A DNA stretch of 62,335 nucleotides from the NCBI GenBank assembly GCA_021604105.1, contig BQIW01000014.1:1-62335 (forward strand), written 5' to 3'. Every line of letters starts with the position of its first letter. Positions within the stretch are counted from its first letter, which is position 1. Of this stretch, positions 13,035-29,083 are shown one piece after another. Origin of the DNA: Nitrospirales bacterium. Its GTDB lineage: Bacteria > Nitrospirota > Nitrospiria > Nitrospirales > UBA8639. The notes under the pieces were generated by a model. The model was not told the origin of the DNA. It ran no database searches and saw nothing but the letters and a program-made list of their open reading frames with translations. The position numbers were made by a program, and so were the translations under genes.

Positions 13035-14720
13035 ATGACCAGAAATTTATTCCGTTTGGCAAAGGGCCGTTACGATGTGATTGTCGTGGGAGGTGGAATT
13101 TATGGCGCGTGCGTGGCCTGGGATGCGACCCTCCGTGGATTGTCGGTAGTTCTGCTTGAAAAAGGTGATATCGGTTCAGGGACCTCGGCGAACAGCTTGA
13201 AAATTATTCATGGAGGATTTCGATACCTACAACATGGGGATTTTTCGCGAATGCGGGAATCGTTACATGAACAAAAGGCGCTGATGCGGATTGCCCCGCA
13301 TTTGGTCCATCCCCTCCCAGTCCTTATCCCCACGTATGGCCATGGTCTGCGAGGAAGGGAGGTCTTCGCGTGTGCCTTAGCGATTAATGATCTTGTCGGG
13401 TTTGATCGAAATCGATTGGAGGATCCCCAAAAGCACATTCCGAGAGGACGAATTCTTCCACGAAATCAGGTTCTGGAATTGCTACCGAATATTCAGGCAC
13501 ACAATCTGACGGGTGGCGGGGTGTTTTATGATGCCATGGTCTACAACTCGGAACGGTTGCTCCTGTCATTTCTTCACTCGGCTGTGGCAATGGGGGCGGA
13601 ACTGGCCAACTACGTCAAAGCGGTTGGGTATCTCAAAGGGAAGGACAGCATTCGGGGGGTCGAAGCTGAGGATATGCTATCGGGTGAGCGATTTCAGGTT
13701 GAAGCGAAAGTGGTAGTGAATGCCTGCGGACCGTGGTTCGATCAGACGGAAGATATGTTGTCTGATCGTCCCAGGAACCATCGGATCCCGTGGGTCAAGG
13801 CCTTTAATATTCTCACTCGTCCGTTGTTCTCATCCTATGCCGTTGGGTTGGCGGCAAGGGGGACATATTCCGATGACCGGGCTTTACTGAATAAAGGGAA
13901 ACGACTGCTGTTTATGGTGCCCTGGCGTGGGTGTTCCCTCGTTGGGACCGCCTATCGATCATATGAAGGACAGCCGGATACATTCAGCATTTCCGAAAAT
14001 GATATTCATGAATTTTTACAGGAAATCAATCAGGTCTATCCTCAAGCGGCTCTTCAAATGAGCGATGTGAAATTGGTCAACGGCGGCCTGCTTCCTGGGG
14101 TGAATGTTGAGTCTCGTAGTGGGGATATTCAGCTTGAGAGTGAAGCGTCCATACGGACCAGGGGAGACGTTGGAGCCGAAAATGTTATATCGCTTGTGGG
14201 CGTCAAATTTACCACGGCTCGACGGGTGGGAGAACGAGTGGTTGATCAAGTGTTTCAGGTTTTGGGTAAGACTCCACCACGATCGCAAACGTCTCATACC
14301 CCTCTTCGCGGTGGAGAGATCTCTGCATTTCAGGAATATTTGAACCAGGAAATGAAAAGCCCTCGCCAGGGATTAAGTGCGAAGGCAGTGCAACGGTTAG
14401 TTTACAATTATGGCTCTTCCTATGGCGACGTTCTGCAATATTATCCCGATGCCTGTGGTAGGGAATTCCATTCCGAGTCAGAATCTATCAGGCTTTTACA
14501 AGCGGAAGTGCAGTATGCCTTGCGGGAAGAAATGCCTCAACGATTAAGTGACGTGGTTTTTCGCCGAACAGAGTTAGGGACGGCTGGATATCCCGGCGAT
14601 AAGCCCCTGGAGGTCTGCGCAGATATTCTTTCGAAAGGGTTGGGATGGAATAAGACCCAAACCCAACAAGAATTGGCAATGGTTCGAGGTATGTACCCGA
14701 GGGCAACATGGCGGAATTAG
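13035..14720 (+). CDS. FAD-dependent glycerol-3-phosphate dehydrogenase/oxidase-like protein (GlpD family)
   Basis: This 561-residue protein has a dinucleotide-binding GGGIYG at residues 19-24, a GSGTSANSLKIIHGGFRYL block typical of GlpD, NACGPWFD, an LVGTAYRSYEG block and the C-terminal VGVKFTTAR. The family oxidises sn-glycerol-3-phosphate to dihydroxyacetone phosphate with FAD. Finding it inside an EPS locus, overlapping a methyltransferase gene by 13 nt, suggests that it acts on a phosphoglycerol-like or related hydroxy substituent rather than in central glycerol use; this is inference. Length is close to family normal. The start ATG at 13035 has only a weak ribosome-binding site. Confidence 0.8.
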   Translation: MTRNLFRLAKGRYDVIVVGGGIYGACVAWDATLRGLSVVLLEKGDIGSGTSANSLKIIHGGFRYLQHGDFSRMRESLHEQKALMRIAPHLVHPLPVLIPTYGHGLRGREVFACALAINDLVGFDRNRLEDPQKHIPRGRILPRNQVLELLPNIQAHNLTGGGVFYDAMVYNSERLLLSFLHSAVAMGAELANYVKAVGYLKGKDSIRGVEAEDMLSGERFQVEAKVVVNACGPWFDQTEDMLSDRPRNHRIPWVKAFNILTRPLFSSYAVGLAARGTYSDDRALLNKGKRLLFMVPWRGCSLVGTAYRSYEGQPDTFSISENDIHEFLQEINQVYPQAALQMSDVKLVNGGLLPGVNVESRSGDIQLESEASIRTRGDVGAENVISLVGVKFTTARRVGERVVDQVFQVLGKTPPRSQTSHTPLRGGEISAFQEYLNQEMKSPRQGLSAKAVQRLVYNYGSSYGDVLQYYPDACGREFHSESESIRLLQAEVQYALREEMPQRLSDVVFRRTELGTAGYPGDKPLEVCADILSKGLGWNKTQTQQELAMVRGMYPRATWRN

Positions 14721-21628: not shown

Positions 21629-23134
21629 ATGAATGAGGATGACAAAAGCCATGCTGGGACAGGATTGCGGATATTCCAGAACTTTGGGTATTTAACTGTC
21701 GGCAAGCTCCTTGCCGATGGAGCCACATTTTGGTTCTTTATTGTCCTCGCGCGTACGTATGGCCAGGAGGGCATCGGGCAATATTCATTTGCAATGGCAT
21801 TGACGAGTGTGCTTGCGGTTTTTGCCGATTTCGGCATCCATAACCTGTCCATAAAGTATCTGAGCCGCGACAGAGATCAGGTGACGAACTACTATGGACG
21901 TCTGTTGGCAGTGCGTCTCTTGCTATCGGCCACCGTTATATCTGTGTTGTTGGTGATGACCGCTCTGTTCCCCTTCCCGGAGGAGATGAAGCTCCTCATC
22001 ATAGTGATCGGAGCCTATCAAGTCTTTCTCACACTTGTGGATGGATTTGGAGCAGTATTTGTCGCCTGGGAGGATATGCACATCACGAGTCTTCTTGAGG
22101 TCTCCCTTCGAGTTACCACAGCCCTGGCAGGCATCGTGATAGTTTACTCGGGAGGAGGTCTGATACTCGCAGTATCTGTCCTGCCAGTTATGACTATTCT
22201 TCATGTTGCCCTTGGCTATCATTTAACCCTGAAGCGTTGTGGGGCGCTTCATATTGCTATCACGGTTGCCGAGGCTCGTCAGATTTTATGCGAAGCTTTC
22301 CCCTATGCCATTCATTTTTTGTTGGAACTATTCTCTTCTAGAGTGACTTTGTTATTTGTTGGTTTCATGCTTGGTGTTTCCGCTACCGGCCTCTTTAATG
22401 CAGCCTATCGATTAATTGTCGTACTGTTGTGGGTTCCTATATTTGCCGGCTATGCAGTCTTTCCGGTTGCGTCTCGTCTTCATATCAGTTCCCCGAAACA
22501 ATTGCAGGGCCTGCATGAAAACACGCTAAACTTTGCAATTATTATCGGTCTCCCGATGTCGGCGGGTATCTGGCTGATTGCGCCAAAATTGATCGAGCTG
22601 TTTTATGGGATAGAGTTTTTTGAGTCAATAGGGATATTGCGCTGGCTCGCCTGGCTCGTCGTCCTGGGTTTTCTAAAGACTATTATGCAGATTTTTCTGA
22701 CAGCGTGTGATCGTCAGATGACGGTGACGAGAATTCAATTCCTGGTTGCATGTATTGGAAGCATCCTCCACTACTGGCTTATTGCGAAGTTTGGTTTGCA
22801 AGGGGCAGCCGCCGCGATTCTCCTAACGGAAATACTGCTCATTGTAATTCTTGGCAGTCGGGCTAATGAGTTGTTTAATTGGAAGAGCATCGCTAAGCGA
22901 GTTGTAATGAGCAGCACTGCAGTTGCAGCTTTTCTGGTGCTCTTAATGGTTTGGAACGAATTTCCATTGCCCGTCACCATATTGAGCTCCGTCCTAGTAT
23001 ATTGCGGAGTGCTGTTGCTTTTCCATGACATCCGACAGAATGAGCTTCGACTGTTTCTCGACTACTTGCCCTATAATCGCCACAACCAGAGTGATTCCTC
23101 CAAAAAGCCAGTTACCAAAACCGGCAAGATCTAA
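21629..23134 (+). CDS. Lipid-linked oligosaccharide flippase, Wzx-like (first copy)
   Basis: This 501-residue polytopic protein has about 12-14 membrane helices, starting with GYLTVGKLLADGATFWFFIVLAR and the family-typical YGQEGIGQYSFA. Charged residues fall in helices as expected for MOP-family Wzx proteins. It should flip the undecaprenyl-linked repeat unit to the periplasmic side. A second, different Wzx-like protein is encoded at 51835-53316. The gene follows the deacetylase with a 105-nt spacer and is followed by a GNAT-like gene after 25 nt. Which sugar unit it moves cannot be told. Confidence 0.9.
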   Translation: MNEDDKSHAGTGLRIFQNFGYLTVGKLLADGATFWFFIVLARTYGQEGIGQYSFAMALTSVLAVFADFGIHNLSIKYLSRDRDQVTNYYGRLLAVRLLLSATVISVLLVMTALFPFPEEMKLLIIVIGAYQVFLTLVDGFGAVFVAWEDMHITSLLEVSLRVTTALAGIVIVYSGGGLILAVSVLPVMTILHVALGYHLTLKRCGALHIAITVAEARQILCEAFPYAIHFLLELFSSRVTLLFVGFMLGVSATGLFNAAYRLIVVLLWVPIFAGYAVFPVASRLHISSPKQLQGLHENTLNFAIIIGLPMSAGIWLIAPKLIELFYGIEFFESIGILRWLAWLVVLGFLKTIMQIFLTACDRQMTVTRIQFLVACIGSILHYWLIAKFGLQGAAAAILLTEILLIVILGSRANELFNWKSIAKRVVMSSTAVAAFLVLLMVWNEFPLPVTILSSVLVYCGVLLLFHDIRQNELRLFLDYLPYNRHNQSDSSKKPVTKTGKI

Positions 23135-23159
23135 CGCAGTTACAAGGGACATTTGCAAA

Positions 23160-24236
23160 ATGCGCATTAGAACTCTCCGTAATAACTCAGAGCTGGATTC
23201 GATCAAAGATGTGTGGGAAACATTTGAAGCGCACCCGAATGGCCCTACTGTATTTCAGGCCTGGACCTGGAACCGGATCTGGTGTGATCGGGTACTGGCT
23301 GAAAACAGAAACATGAGATTGGCTGTCAAGCTCGTTGAAGATTCCGCAGGTCGGCCCGTGGCCATTCTTCCTTTTTTTGAACAGGCAATAATGGGCTCGA
23401 TGCTTCAGGTGACGCAGTTTCTTGGGCACCGGATGTCCACCTATAACGATATACTTCTTGCTGATCCGAATGACATGGAGCTATGCAAAGAAGTTGTTGC
23501 GTCTCTTTGCTCCGACACCCAAACAAACGGCTGCATTCATCTTCGGCAAATGTCGGATGAGTCAGTTTTTGCAAAGGGACTCATTGATCGCGGGCTTGCT
23601 GAGCCACAGTGTCAGCGCGCTTGGGTTGATGCTGACCCAGAGGTGCCGGATCCATTATCACGGGTCAGTAAGTCACGGAGAAAACATATTCGTCGCGCGG
23701 AGCGGAGTCTGCGTAAGAAGGGCACGGTTGAGTTTCGTGTGTGTCGGGGAAACGAGTTCACGTCTGCCTTTGACGAATTGATCAATTTGCATTACCGACG
23801 ATTCTCGCACAAGCGTAAGGAAACGAACCTCACGAGTCAGAACGTAGGCTTTCTCAGGAATGCCGCCGCCACGCTTAGCAGTAAAGGCCAGGCTGAAGTC
23901 CTCCTGCTCCGATGTGACGATGTGACGATAGCCGGGGTGTTCCAGGTTATAGATCGGAATCGTTACTATTCATTACAATCAGGATTCGATCCTGAATATG
24001 CTGATTACTCACCGATTTGGTTGCTCGACGTAGAAAGTATGCGCAGAGGATTCACAGAGCTTGGCTGTACACGTTACGAACTAGGAGCGGTATACAATGA
24101 GTACAAATATGGTTGGAATCCTTCGTTAGGCATGAGTTATGTCGCAAGTTTTAATGGCGATAACTGGCTGTCTCAAATTGCGCAAAGTGCATACCGCTAT
24201 AAATTCAGGAGAGACGCCAAACGTTTAGGGGTGTAA
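23160..24236 (+). CDS. GNAT/FemAB-like acyltransferase (Acetyltransf_6/BioF2-like)
   Basis: This 358-residue soluble protein has the two-lobed GNAT layout of CelD/BcsL/FemAB-like enzymes: N-terminal WNRIWCDR, a basic RKHIRRAERSLRKKG stretch, YYSLQSGFDPEYADYSP and ELGAVYNEYKYGW near the end. Relatives transfer acyl or aminoacyl groups in cell-surface polymer synthesis. The start at ATG 23160 with AAGGGA upstream avoids overlap with the flippase gene; a longer frame upstream looks like an artefact. Together with the upstream acyl-activation genes it may use a carrier-bound acyl group, which is inference. A second FemAB-type gene occurs at 50631. Confidence 0.8.
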   Translation: MRIRTLRNNSELDSIKDVWETFEAHPNGPTVFQAWTWNRIWCDRVLAENRNMRLAVKLVEDSAGRPVAILPFFEQAIMGSMLQVTQFLGHRMSTYNDILLADPNDMELCKEVVASLCSDTQTNGCIHLRQMSDESVFAKGLIDRGLAEPQCQRAWVDADPEVPDPLSRVSKSRRKHIRRAERSLRKKGTVEFRVCRGNEFTSAFDELINLHYRRFSHKRKETNLTSQNVGFLRNAAATLSSKGQAEVLLLRCDDVTIAGVFQVIDRNRYYSLQSGFDPEYADYSPIWLLDVESMRRGFTELGCTRYELGAVYNEYKYGWNPSLGMSYVASFNGDNWLSQIAQSAYRYKFRRDAKRLGV

Positions 24237-25348: not shown

Positions 25349-26107
25349 ATGGGTGATGATTTACCTGGAGTGGAATACTGGGACTCCGATGATGCGCTGC
25401 GAGACTATACCAAGCCACCGGAGCTTATGGGTGGAGAGAGGCTGGCGCTTAAGGATGTTTTTGCAAACGACCTCTCGGGTAAGAAAGTGCTCGATCTCGG
25501 CTGTGGTGGAGGCCGTACCAGCGTCATACTACGAGACATGGGGGGTGAGGTCATAGGGGTTGATATCAGTACGAGGTTGATCGGAGCGGCACGACGCCGA
25601 TTTCCAGATATTGACTTTCAGCTTGGTGATGCGGTCAATCTGACCTATCCCGACGCAAGCTTTGATTGTGTGTTGTTCTCATTCAATGGTTTGGACTATT
25701 TGTATCCTTTGAAGGCGCGGCTGAAGGGCATTGGTGAGATATGGCGTGTTCTGCGACCAGGAGGCGTGTTCATTCTCTCCTTTCACAATCTTTCATCATT
25801 CATGTTTGGGTGGTACCAGTTCATGCGGCCCTGGAAGCTGGCCTTTCGAGCCAAACACATCCTTCTCGGAAACTTTTTTAAGCCCGAGTGCTTTCTGTTG
25901 GAGCCGGACAATTTCGGTATGTGGGGGTACCATGCTTGGCCGCACAAGTTCCGTGAGGGCATGGAGGCGAATCAGTTCGAAGTCATCGGGGTCTATCCGA
26001 ATGATCCGGTGCTTGGCTGGTTGCAACAAACAATCCGGAGTACAGTGATGACGCGGCTGTGTGACCCCTGGCCCTATTATGCGTTTCGCAAGACTGTCGT
26101 TAAGTAG
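25349..26107 (+). CDS. Class I SAM methyltransferase
   Basis: This 252-residue protein carries VLDLGCGGGRTSVIL (motif I), VIGVDIS (post I), FQLGDA (motif II) and EIWRVLRPGGVFILSFHN (motif IV/post), as in ubiE/bioC-like small-molecule methyltransferases. A hydrophobic patch around FMFGWYQFMRPWKLAF could contact the membrane. It may O- or N-methylate a sugar of the repeat unit; the acceptor is unknown. It is followed after 133 nt by another methyltransferase-fold gene of PRMT type. The 5' ribosome-binding site is weak; the start is set by the first ATG of the family-typical N-terminus. Confidence 0.82.
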   Translation: MGDDLPGVEYWDSDDALRDYTKPPELMGGERLALKDVFANDLSGKKVLDLGCGGGRTSVILRDMGGEVIGVDISTRLIGAARRRFPDIDFQLGDAVNLTYPDASFDCVLFSFNGLDYLYPLKARLKGIGEIWRVLRPGGVFILSFHNLSSFMFGWYQFMRPWKLAFRAKHILLGNFFKPECFLLEPDNFGMWGYHAWPHKFREGMEANQFEVIGVYPNDPVLGWLQQTIRSTVMTRLCDPWPYYAFRKTVVK

Positions 26108-26240: not shown

Positions 26241-27248
26241 ATGTTGGGAGTCCTAGTTAGCGGGATTACTGGGTTTGCAAAGAAGATCATCCAATCCAAT
26301 AAAGCCTTAGATACACTGAATTATGATCTTGCCAATATGGGAGAGTTTAGCAACCTTTTCGAGCATGAAAAGATGTTGTCAGATTATATACGTGTAAATA
26401 CATATTGTAATGCGATTCGGGAACATTTGAAACCTGGAGATTCAGCCATTGATTTGGGTACGGGCACTGGAATTCTCTCCCTATTTGCGGCGCGACAAGG
26501 GGCCAGAGTCTTCGCAATAGATCATTCCAAGTTTATAAGAGTTGCGCAAAAAATTGCCCAAAAGAATGGGATCGATAATATTAGATTCATCCGTTCAAAC
26601 AGCCGCCGGTTTACTCCTCCAGAAAATGTAGATTTCATTATTCATGAACAAATGGGTGATGATCTGTTTAACGAAAACATGATACAGAATTTGTTAGATC
26701 TAAAGCAGCGTGTCTTAAAAAAAACGGGGAAGATTCTTCCTGGCAGATTCATGTTATTTCTGGAGCCGGTTGCAATAAAAGAAAATTACCGTGTGCCATT
26801 TATCTGGGAAAAGCCTGTATCTGTAAGTGGTCTTCCACAGGAGGTTGATTTTGGCTTCTTGCGTGACTTGCCGGAAGCAAAGGAATTTCAACCTCCAGGA
26901 TATAACCGACACTTCGTGGATGAAGCCTCGCTAGATTTCTTCCTCGGGGAACCAGAACCTATAATGACATTCGATTTGAACGAGATAGACAGCGCCAAAG
27001 AGATACCTATGCATTGGGAAGCGAAGCGACTCGTCATTCGTCCTGGAGGTCTTGATGGATTTTGTCTTTTCTTCGGGGCTGACTTTGGGAAGGGCATTCA
27101 GTTTGATACTCGGCCCGGGCGCACCTGCTGGGCGAACCGTCTCTTTCGTATTCCACGAAAAGAGTACGGCCAAGGGGAAACCATAAAATTTTCTGTGAAA
27201 GCTGTTGATCTAAGAAGATCCTATACTTGGACATTCACTATTGATTAG
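26241..27248 (+). CDS. PRMT-like methyltransferase (type I arginine methyltransferase fold)
   Basis: This 335-residue protein has the PRMT order: HEKMLSDYIRVNTY (the N-terminal helix that contacts SAM and substrate), motif I DLGTGTG at 71-77, a double-E loop with E136 and E145 spaced exactly as in PRMT1, and an MHW at 257-259 where PRMTs have THW. A C-terminal beta-barrel region follows with GGLDGFCLFFGADF. Those elements match protein arginine N-methyltransferases better than small-molecule methyltransferases. Such enzymes are rare in bacteria. Inside an EPS locus its target could be a protein of the assembly machinery or a basic small molecule; nothing in the sequence identifies it. The SD sequence AAGGTAAGGAG lies just upstream. 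Confidence 0.75.
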   Translation: MLGVLVSGITGFAKKIIQSNKALDTLNYDLANMGEFSNLFEHEKMLSDYIRVNTYCNAIREHLKPGDSAIDLGTGTGILSLFAARQGARVFAIDHSKFIRVAQKIAQKNGIDNIRFIRSNSRRFTPPENVDFIIHEQMGDDLFNENMIQNLLDLKQRVLKKTGKILPGRFMLFLEPVAIKENYRVPFIWEKPVSVSGLPQEVDFGFLRDLPEAKEFQPPGYNRHFVDEASLDFFLGEPEPIMTFDLNEIDSAKEIPMHWEAKRLVIRPGGLDGFCLFFGADFGKGIQFDTRPGRTCWANRLFRIPRKEYGQGETIKFSVKAVDLRRSYTWTFTID

Positions 27249-28003: not shown

Positions 28004-29083
28004 ATGTTCACGATACGAGTTTTATTCGTTGGGATCATAACTTTGGCCATGACGGTGCAAGTGTATGCCCTTGATGCGATTCCTGAAAAACTTTCTGATT
28101 GGACCGAAAAAGGGGTTGTTCTCCAGAACAGTTCAGGCCTGGCCTGGGAAAATAAACCTGGCATCGCTGTGAGTGGTATCTCGAAAGTGGGCGGGATCTA
28201 TTATCTCCATTATCTCGCAGGGTTTAACGGGTGTTGGAATGCGGATGGTGATGTCAACCACCAATCTCTCGGTCTTGCCACCAGTACGGACGGAGTGAAC
28301 TTTACAAAATACGCAGGGAATCCGGTGTTGAAACCCCATGACTTCTTACCCGTCAGTTCTCAGGAAGAAGGGGTCCGAACCGCGTATATTCGGTATCTGC
28401 CTTCTAAGGGGAAGTTTTACGGTTACTTTGGTGTCGAATCGCCAGGTGGCTCTCAGACATGTAACTTCGGTGGAGGAGGAACCTGTGGCTGTAATATTGG
28501 TGTTGATGCCCGGGTGTATGGAGCTACGTCGGTTGACGGGAAAACTTGGACTGTGGAAGGGTCGGTCGGTGGTACATATTCCTCAAGTGGTAGCGAAGTC
28601 TATGCCGCAGACTGGGTGTATGATGGCAGTAATTTCAGTCTGTATGTCACCACGGCTGAAGGTGGCAGGAACAAGGCTGCATCAAGAGGGTCAAACCCAT
28701 TGAGTCTCAATGAATTAGGCGGTGTAAGTGCACTCGACTGGGGTTGGTCCGGGCTTGACGCCTATTTACACGATGATAACAACACCCTCACATTAATATA
28801 CAACCCCCAGGGTGGGAGTCATCCTGGTAGCAGCAATGACAACCTGTATTTTGCGACCACTCACCTCGACGACATGAAGAATATTCAAAACGAGCGGGTT
28901 ATCACTACATCGGGGGTACTACAAAATAAAATCTTTCGAGACGGAAACGAGTGGAAATGGTATTACAGTGATGACCCGAGTTGGAATAATAATGTCATCA
29001 AACTTCGCACACACCCGATCACCAATGCGGACAATGTGCCTCCGCAACCTCCCAAAAATCTGAAGGTCGCGCCCATTAATTGA
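28004..29083 (+). CDS. Secreted beta-propeller protein, GH32/GH43-like fold
   Basis: This 359-residue protein has a signal peptide of about 23 residues (LFVGIITLAMTVQVYA). Repeated propeller blades follow, with LATSTDGVNFTKYAGNPVL, the five-bladed glycosidase pattern, and with several GIYYLHYLAG/GKFYGYFGV-type strands. Cysteines in a Gly-rich patch (CNFGGGGTCGCN) suggest disulfides. The catalytic Asp/Glu trio of GH32/43 is not clearly placed, so it may bind rather than cleave sugars. The end DNVPPQPPKNLKVAPIN resembles the first strand of a fibronectin type III domain that then stops. A protein at 60210-61472 has the same kind of end. Confidence 0.65.
   Translation: MFTIRVLFVGIITLAMTVQVYALDAIPEKLSDWTEKGVVLQNSSGLAWENKPGIAVSGISKVGGIYYLHYLAGFNGCWNADGDVNHQSLGLATSTDGVNFTKYAGNPVLKPHDFLPVSSQEEGVRTAYIRYLPSKGKFYGYFGVESPGGSQTCNFGGGGTCGCNIGVDARVYGATSVDGKTWTVEGSVGGTYSSSGSEVYAADWVYDGSNFSLYVTTAEGGRNKAASRGSNPLSLNELGGVSALDWGWSGLDAYLHDDNNTLTLIYNPQGGSHPGSSNDNLYFATTHLDDMKNIQNERVITTSGVLQNKIFRDGNEWKWYYSDDPSWNNNVIKLRTHPITNADNVPPQPPKNLKVAPIN

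Follow-up and report, generated by a model that had tools for sequence, protein, structure and literature searches.

A predicted PRMT-fold methyltransferase encoded in an exopolysaccharide locus of a Nitrospirales bacterium

Arginine methylation by PRMTs is usually regarded as eukaryotic, and a recent comprehensive review of these enzymes has the words "bacteria" and "prokaryot" nowhere in its text. Our own literature search for bacterial PRMTs found nothing direct. A guanidino methyltransferase has been described from bacteria, namely SznE/StzE, which methylates free L-arginine (PMC11705231), and an SznE-like gene is contained in the saskemycin cluster, which makes N-methylagmatine groups (PMC12637814). 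By its literature description SznE/StzE, as a bacterial guanidino N-methyltransferase, resembles what we propose below for the protein studied here, but it comes from a Streptomyces natural-product cluster (streptozotocin biosynthesis).

The window, by which we mean the whole stretch of DNA analysed (62,335 nucleotides from a Nitrospirales genome of 4.9 Mb), encodes a protein that shares with eukaryotic type I PRMTs (PRMT2, PRMT6, PRMT1/3/8 and Arabidopsis PRMT10) a predicted Rossmann domain plus beta-barrel, superposable over 265 residues at 2.4 A, as well as the SAM motif, the double-E spacing, the helix Y Met and Arg and the position of the cis-proline. In contrast to these enzymes, to which it is ~24-28% identical, it has N...F for YFxxY, TCW for THW, HEQMG and then D for SEWMG, and Asp94 for the ribose-binding Glu. 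PRMT9, a type II enzyme, shares the T-C-W and is the best match of a profile of the barrel only, although PRMT9 is duplicated, TPR-bearing and eukaryotic whereas the window protein consists of one module. Other bacterial PRMT-fold proteins (from genus g4, lasso-peptide clusters and plasmids, see below) are of the same fold family, at ~24-31% identity, but most are without an N-terminal extension of 30 residues like that of the window protein, and their genomic contexts differ; in the lasso-linked group, unlike here, the double-E pair is lost.

Gene, fold and family

The gene and its immediate upstream neighbours are as follows.
25349 to 26107, + strand: class I SAM methyltransferase of generic type, separated by 133 bp from the gene downstream; the corresponding locus of G003 encodes a relative at 46% identity
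26229 to 26234, + strand: AAGGAG ribosome-binding site just 5' of the ATG at 26241, supporting that start
26241 to 27248, + strand: coding sequence of the PRMT-fold methyltransferase, 335 aa (open frame, PRMT profile match, AlphaFold model, dN/dS)

The open frame of 335 codons spans exactly 26241-27248 (+), and AAGGAGG sites comparable to its ribosome-binding site are present in two of the related loci (L015 and L016). The protein is 70% identical to its orthologues in two congeners (G018 and G014), 51-59% identical to relatives in G285 and in the MAG S06.Bin014, and 38% identical to one in G004. Between the window gene and that of G018 dN is 0.195 and dS 2.59, the latter saturated, giving a dN/dS of about 0.08, while between the G018 and G014 orthologues dN is 0.039 and dS 0.465. 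Since dN is far below dS in both pairs, the 335-aa protein is under purifying selection, as is expected of a functional gene.

The original prediction saw in this protein a relative of PRMTs, and on this point single-sequence, profile, barrel-only and structure comparisons all agree. In a phmmer search of the PDB with the single protein, the best 60 matches listed were PRMTs only (best E 1.5e-22, residues 32-319), whereas the neighbouring methyltransferase (25349-26107), searched likewise as a control, had zero PRMTs among the 60 matches listed. A clade profile of five sequences aligned to PRMTs over positions 37-325 with E down to 6.5e-38, and a profile of the C-terminal half, which leaves out the Rossmann fold, matched PRMTs alone (PRMT9 at 5.8e-10 and PRMT2 at 4e-8). 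Two AlphaFold models, one made from 22 relatives (pTM 0.79) and the other restricted to the five close relatives (pTM 0.75), share the Rossmann-plus-barrel fold, with barrel strands predicted at 240-334, and for both the best 50 structural matches listed are PRMTs only; the VIA-align superposition on Arabidopsis PRMT10 (rmsd 2.4 A over 265 residues) has a Z of 26.6.

One may also consider that this is an ordinary Rossmann methyltransferase, PrmA-like, whose resemblance to PRMTs arose by chance, given that its best Pfam/NCBIfam matches are generic methyltransferase domains and that PF06325 (PrmA-like, L11 methyltransferase) reaches 32 bits. However, PF06325 matches the Rossmann part alone, the PrmA equivalog models, whose cut-offs start at 183 bits (188 for one of them), score no higher than ~31 bits, the neighbour control was negative, and PRMTs are all that the barrel-only profile and the two models match, which makes such a coincidence hardly credible. 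Small-molecule methyltransferase families other than PrmA were rejected by their scores too, so that homology gives no placement in such a family and the PRMT reading stands. Pfam PRMT_C (PF22528, curated cut-off 27 bits) had no match in the host genome at E 0.1, and the genus g4 group of PRMT-fold proteins passes this family, unlike the window protein. Judging from profiles and models together, the window protein is a two-domain PRMT-fold methyltransferase, with a Rossmann domain and a C-terminal barrel.

The active site and its surroundings

Motif definitions were taken from a review of PRMT2 (PMC8623767), and the corresponding parts of the window protein are these.
26322 to 26348, + strand: helix X region, residues 28-36 (Y28...N32...F36), at the place of YFxxY, which is replaced (alignment; PMC8623767)
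26448 to 26477, + strand: SAM motif I, IDLGTGTGIL, residues 70-79 (alignment)
26643 to 26681, + strand: double-E loop HEQMGDDLFNENM, residues 135-147, with E136 and E145 (alignment)
26739 to 26741, + strand: P167, at the place of an inter-domain cis-proline that is strictly conserved in PRMTs, invariant in 22 sequences
26742 to 27245, + strand: C-terminal PRMT beta-barrel, residues 168-335, with a probable dimerisation arm near 182-215 (barrel-only profile)
27009 to 27017, + strand: MHW, residues 257-259, taken for the THW loop in the original prediction; not that loop, and unconserved
27123 to 27131, + strand: THW-loop equivalent, T295-C296-W297 (alignment)

Much of the catalytic framework is retained. 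The D(V/L)GxGxG signature is present as D71-L-G-T-G-T-G77, and the proposed double-E pair is borne out: E136 and E145, spaced 9 residues apart in HEQMGDDLFNE, align with both PRMT double-E glutamates and are invariant in all close relatives. The N-terminal helix reads HEKMLSD..R...Y..AI and aligns with the PRMT pattern HEEML.D.VR...Y, so that its PRMT likeness holds, although not as the YxxML that had been claimed, the actual sequence being H42-E-K-M45-L. Met45 and Arg51 of helix Y are conserved, as is Met147, and P167 has the spacing of Pro254 of PRMT2, which lies 22 residues past the second Glu (PMC8623767). The dimerisation-arm region aligns by sequence, with a pLDDT <50 at 182-197.

The surroundings of the glutamates differ. 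Where PRMTs have YFxxY on helix X, N32-M-G-E-F36 is aligned, its N and F invariant in six members; Y28 is invariant too, and would substitute for the first Tyr of YFxxY only given a 4-residue insertion, in a region where pLDDT is low. The MHW at 257-259 precedes the barrel strand GGLDGFCLFF and is TRF in L029 and KKI in L017; it was thus misplaced, yet the true loop, T295-C296-W297, still supports the same family. Within that loop Thr and Trp are constant and residue 296 varies: G018 and G014 have H, G285 has S, G004 has N and the window has C, so that the window protein is the only one in its three-species group with Cys; in the profile alignment PRMT9 likewise has TCW. Throughout the clade the SEWMG loop of PRMTs has become HEQ(M/I)G followed by D140, and the ribose-binding Glu has become Asp94. 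Four invariant residues of the double-E loop are specific to the clade, H135, Q137, D140 and N146; the compared PRMTs have S at the first of these places, W at the second, Y or N at the third and S or Y at the fourth. Also peculiar to the clade are the N-terminal 30 residues, which look both amphipathic and basic in some members, the moment test being weak.

The arginine pocket of PRMT2 is formed by the helix-X tyrosines together with the THW loop, both of which contact the second glutamate (PMC8623767). Since both motifs are altered in the clade, it appears that the guanidinium clamp is retained but its surroundings have been rebuilt. Because YFxxY, one of the signature motifs, is absent at its expected place, we regard the window protein as a remodelled PRMT-fold relative, short of a PRMT proper. 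The assignment to type I in the original prediction is not supported, as YFxxY is lost across the clade, the histidine of THW is replaced by Cys here and varies elsewhere, and the type II PRMT9 also has TCW; Met45 and Met147 agree with type I, and type II activity is possible as well.

An accessory gene in an exopolysaccharide locus

Two further features define the setting.
3467 to 55845, + strand (limits approximate): XrtA/PEP-CTERM-type exopolysaccharide (EPS) locus (TIGR03013, TIGR03006)
23025 to 24236, + strand: FemAB-like GNAT protein of the EPS locus (PF13480, E 3.6e-29)

That the gene lies in an EPS locus, as had been proposed, is confirmed, and the locus is of XrtA type by the scores of TIGR03013 (EpsB-like glycosyltransferase, 419 bits, cut-off 393) and TIGR03006 (XrtA deacetylase, 353 bits, cut-off 276); several more XrtA-type families match in the window below their cut-offs. 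No exosortase (PF09721) was found in the host assembly, which is 96% complete. A FAD-dependent glycerol-3-phosphate dehydrogenase-like gene (DAO + DAO_C) is present within the locus at 13035-14720, and at its edge, at 1272-2771, lies a gene for a MrcB_N domain protein that matches HNH weakly and is of the McrB-like restriction type.

The stretch holding the PRMT-fold gene is variable, flanked by the FemAB-like GNAT gene (23025-24236) and a conserved gene at 28004-29083. An intact orthologue occupies the identical slot in three species (the window, G018 and G014), the same EPS slot of G003 (L028:8870-9314) has a decayed copy with several stop codons, and the locus of G010, whose genome is complete and has the marker gene, is without any copy; the contigs of G017 stop short of the slot. 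Given this pattern of intact, decayed and absent copies, we take it, from the comparison of these loci, that this is an accessory gene of the EPS locus that is gained and lost. One might suspect that the window copy itself has recently been inactivated or is drifting, since the sister copy in G003 is a pseudogene and Cys296 is unique to the window protein in its three-species group, but the frame is intact, dN/dS is low, a ribosome-binding site is in place and TCW is shared with PRMT9, so that such decay is very improbable.

The relatives of 51-59% identity are also found in EPS loci, near Ugd, a polysaccharide deacetylase, a FemAB-like protein, a 2H phosphoesterase and an unclassified 509-aa protein. 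In L047:5525-9034 and L014:4509-7881 a conserved operon precedes the PRMT-like gene, encoding a 2H phosphoesterase, a protein of 509-517 aa that matches no family and shows, by eye, the motif SLTAGWDSR, and a weakly GNAT-like protein. The 509-aa neighbour of the G285 gene looked asparagine synthetase-like by eye (SLTAGWDSR), an identity dropped for want of a family or PDB match. Transposase-like genes flank the 38% relative of G004 (L017:4665-9278), which suggests its mobility.

With EPS genes and another methyltransferase gene adjoining, the enzyme might have left guanidino chemistry and methylate a sugar or lipid-linked EPS intermediate on an amine or hydroxyl group, and the clade-specific invariant H135, Q137, D140 and N146 would fit such a change. 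Against this, both clamp glutamates are kept, whereas the lasso-linked group has Asp and Ala in their places, and we consider this change of chemistry improbable.

Relatives and possible substrate

At E 1e-30 the clade profile has matches in 35 of the 395 genomes of the phylum. The close clade is found in four of these 395 (the window, G014, G018 and G285), set apart by a gap between 1e-176 and 5e-49; the rest of the matches in the phylum comprise one group that is common in a sister genus, another that sits in lasso-peptide clusters, and a few singles. The rarity in bacteria that had been claimed thus applies to the close clade, but not to PRMT-fold relatives at large, which occur in the 35 genomes and also on alphaproteobacterial plasmids. 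In a tree of 24 sequences, unrooted and from a small sampling, the close clade adjoins eukaryotic PRMT2/6/10 with support 87/91; as a lead only, it may be the bacterial group nearest the eukaryotic PRMTs. A phage origin was considered and rejected: phage genomes were without a match, PHROGs gave generic domains only, and viral contigs were without the clade patterns.

The other groups deserve description in their own right. Lasso-peptide-type clusters with a PRMT-like protein are found at L025:6395-10515, L052:7144-13659, L053:7018-13500 and L054:6733-12796, the first including a PqqD-like protein, a Transglut_core3 protease and a lasso cyclase that exceeds its cut-off, and the second an HprK-related kinase and NTP_transf_5. 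In their PRMT-like proteins D and A stand in place of the lost double-E pair, the THW tryptophan is gone too, and ~80 extra aa follow at the C-terminus, where a PqqD/RRE domain seemed likely by eye but was discarded at an hhalign probability of 0.2%. Another PRMT-fold protein occurs in genus g4 and relatives (L019-L023 and L026), and in several genomes it passes Pfam PRMT_C; it is present in most sampled g4 genomes and in several is adjoined by an AmpG-like transporter. In L022 its neighbours are tryptophan dioxygenase and kynureninase-like genes. Distant PRMT-like proteins on alphaproteobacterial plasmids (L045:7797-8885 and L046:7767-8981) carry the annotation 50S ribosomal protein L11 methyltransferase, which is probably wrong.

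As to function, the reading we prefer, with slightly more doubt than confidence, is that the window protein is a SAM-dependent N-methyltransferase acting on a guanidino or similar cationic nitrogen. The enzyme, probably a homodimer, would hold a guanidinium or similar cationic nitrogen by E136 and E145 in line with the SAM methyl, as in PRMTs, and would mono- or di-methylate it. General cellular proteins would be a less likely substrate than a small molecule or an EPS substituent or precursor that bears nitrogen, and these are slightly more probable than a protein. We favour such a substrate because the clade has altered both the helix-X tyrosines and the THW histidine, because the gene is accessory, gained and lost, and in a polysaccharide locus, and because there are no RGG-type neighbours (a motif scan of the window's frames gave no RGG-rich protein and nothing of note), while SznE/StzE and saskemycin offer precedents. 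Against it stands the canonical THW of the two closest orthologues, as in protein-methylating PRMTs, and the window yielded no guanidino-sugar pathway.

A protein target is a serious rival, because THW is unchanged in the closest orthologues and the tree places the clade near eukaryotic PRMTs, a position (87/91) that favours a protein-type pocket. The enzyme would then be a genuine bacterial protein arginine methyltransferase with one or a few target proteins, perhaps of the EPS machinery, a view consistent with the full PRMT fold including the barrel, the double-E pair, Met45 and Met147 as in type I, THW in those orthologues, TCW in PRMT9 as well, and the place of the clade, in a small tree, as nearest of the bacterial groups to eukaryotic PRMTs. 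However, YFxxY is lost in 6/6 members, the THW histidine is variable, the locus is without an RGG-type target and the gene is patchy and accessory, and we therefore regard a protein arginine methyltransferase as possible but not probable.

We know of no case in which PRMTs methylate a guanidino or amidino group of an EPS. That a bacterial lineage near the root of the eukaryotic PRMTs methylates such a group, or else an arginine of the EPS machinery, is a doubtful proposition; were the arginine version true, it would mean PRMT-mediated protein modification in bacteria. Current annotation conceals PRMT-fold genes by labelling them as "ribosomal protein L11 methyltransferase" or as generic methyltransferases. 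A bacterial clade that appears to have the complete fold, both clamp glutamates and an altered pocket may offer a tractable route to the question of PRMT origin, and it asks what PRMT-fold enzymes do without eukaryotic targets.
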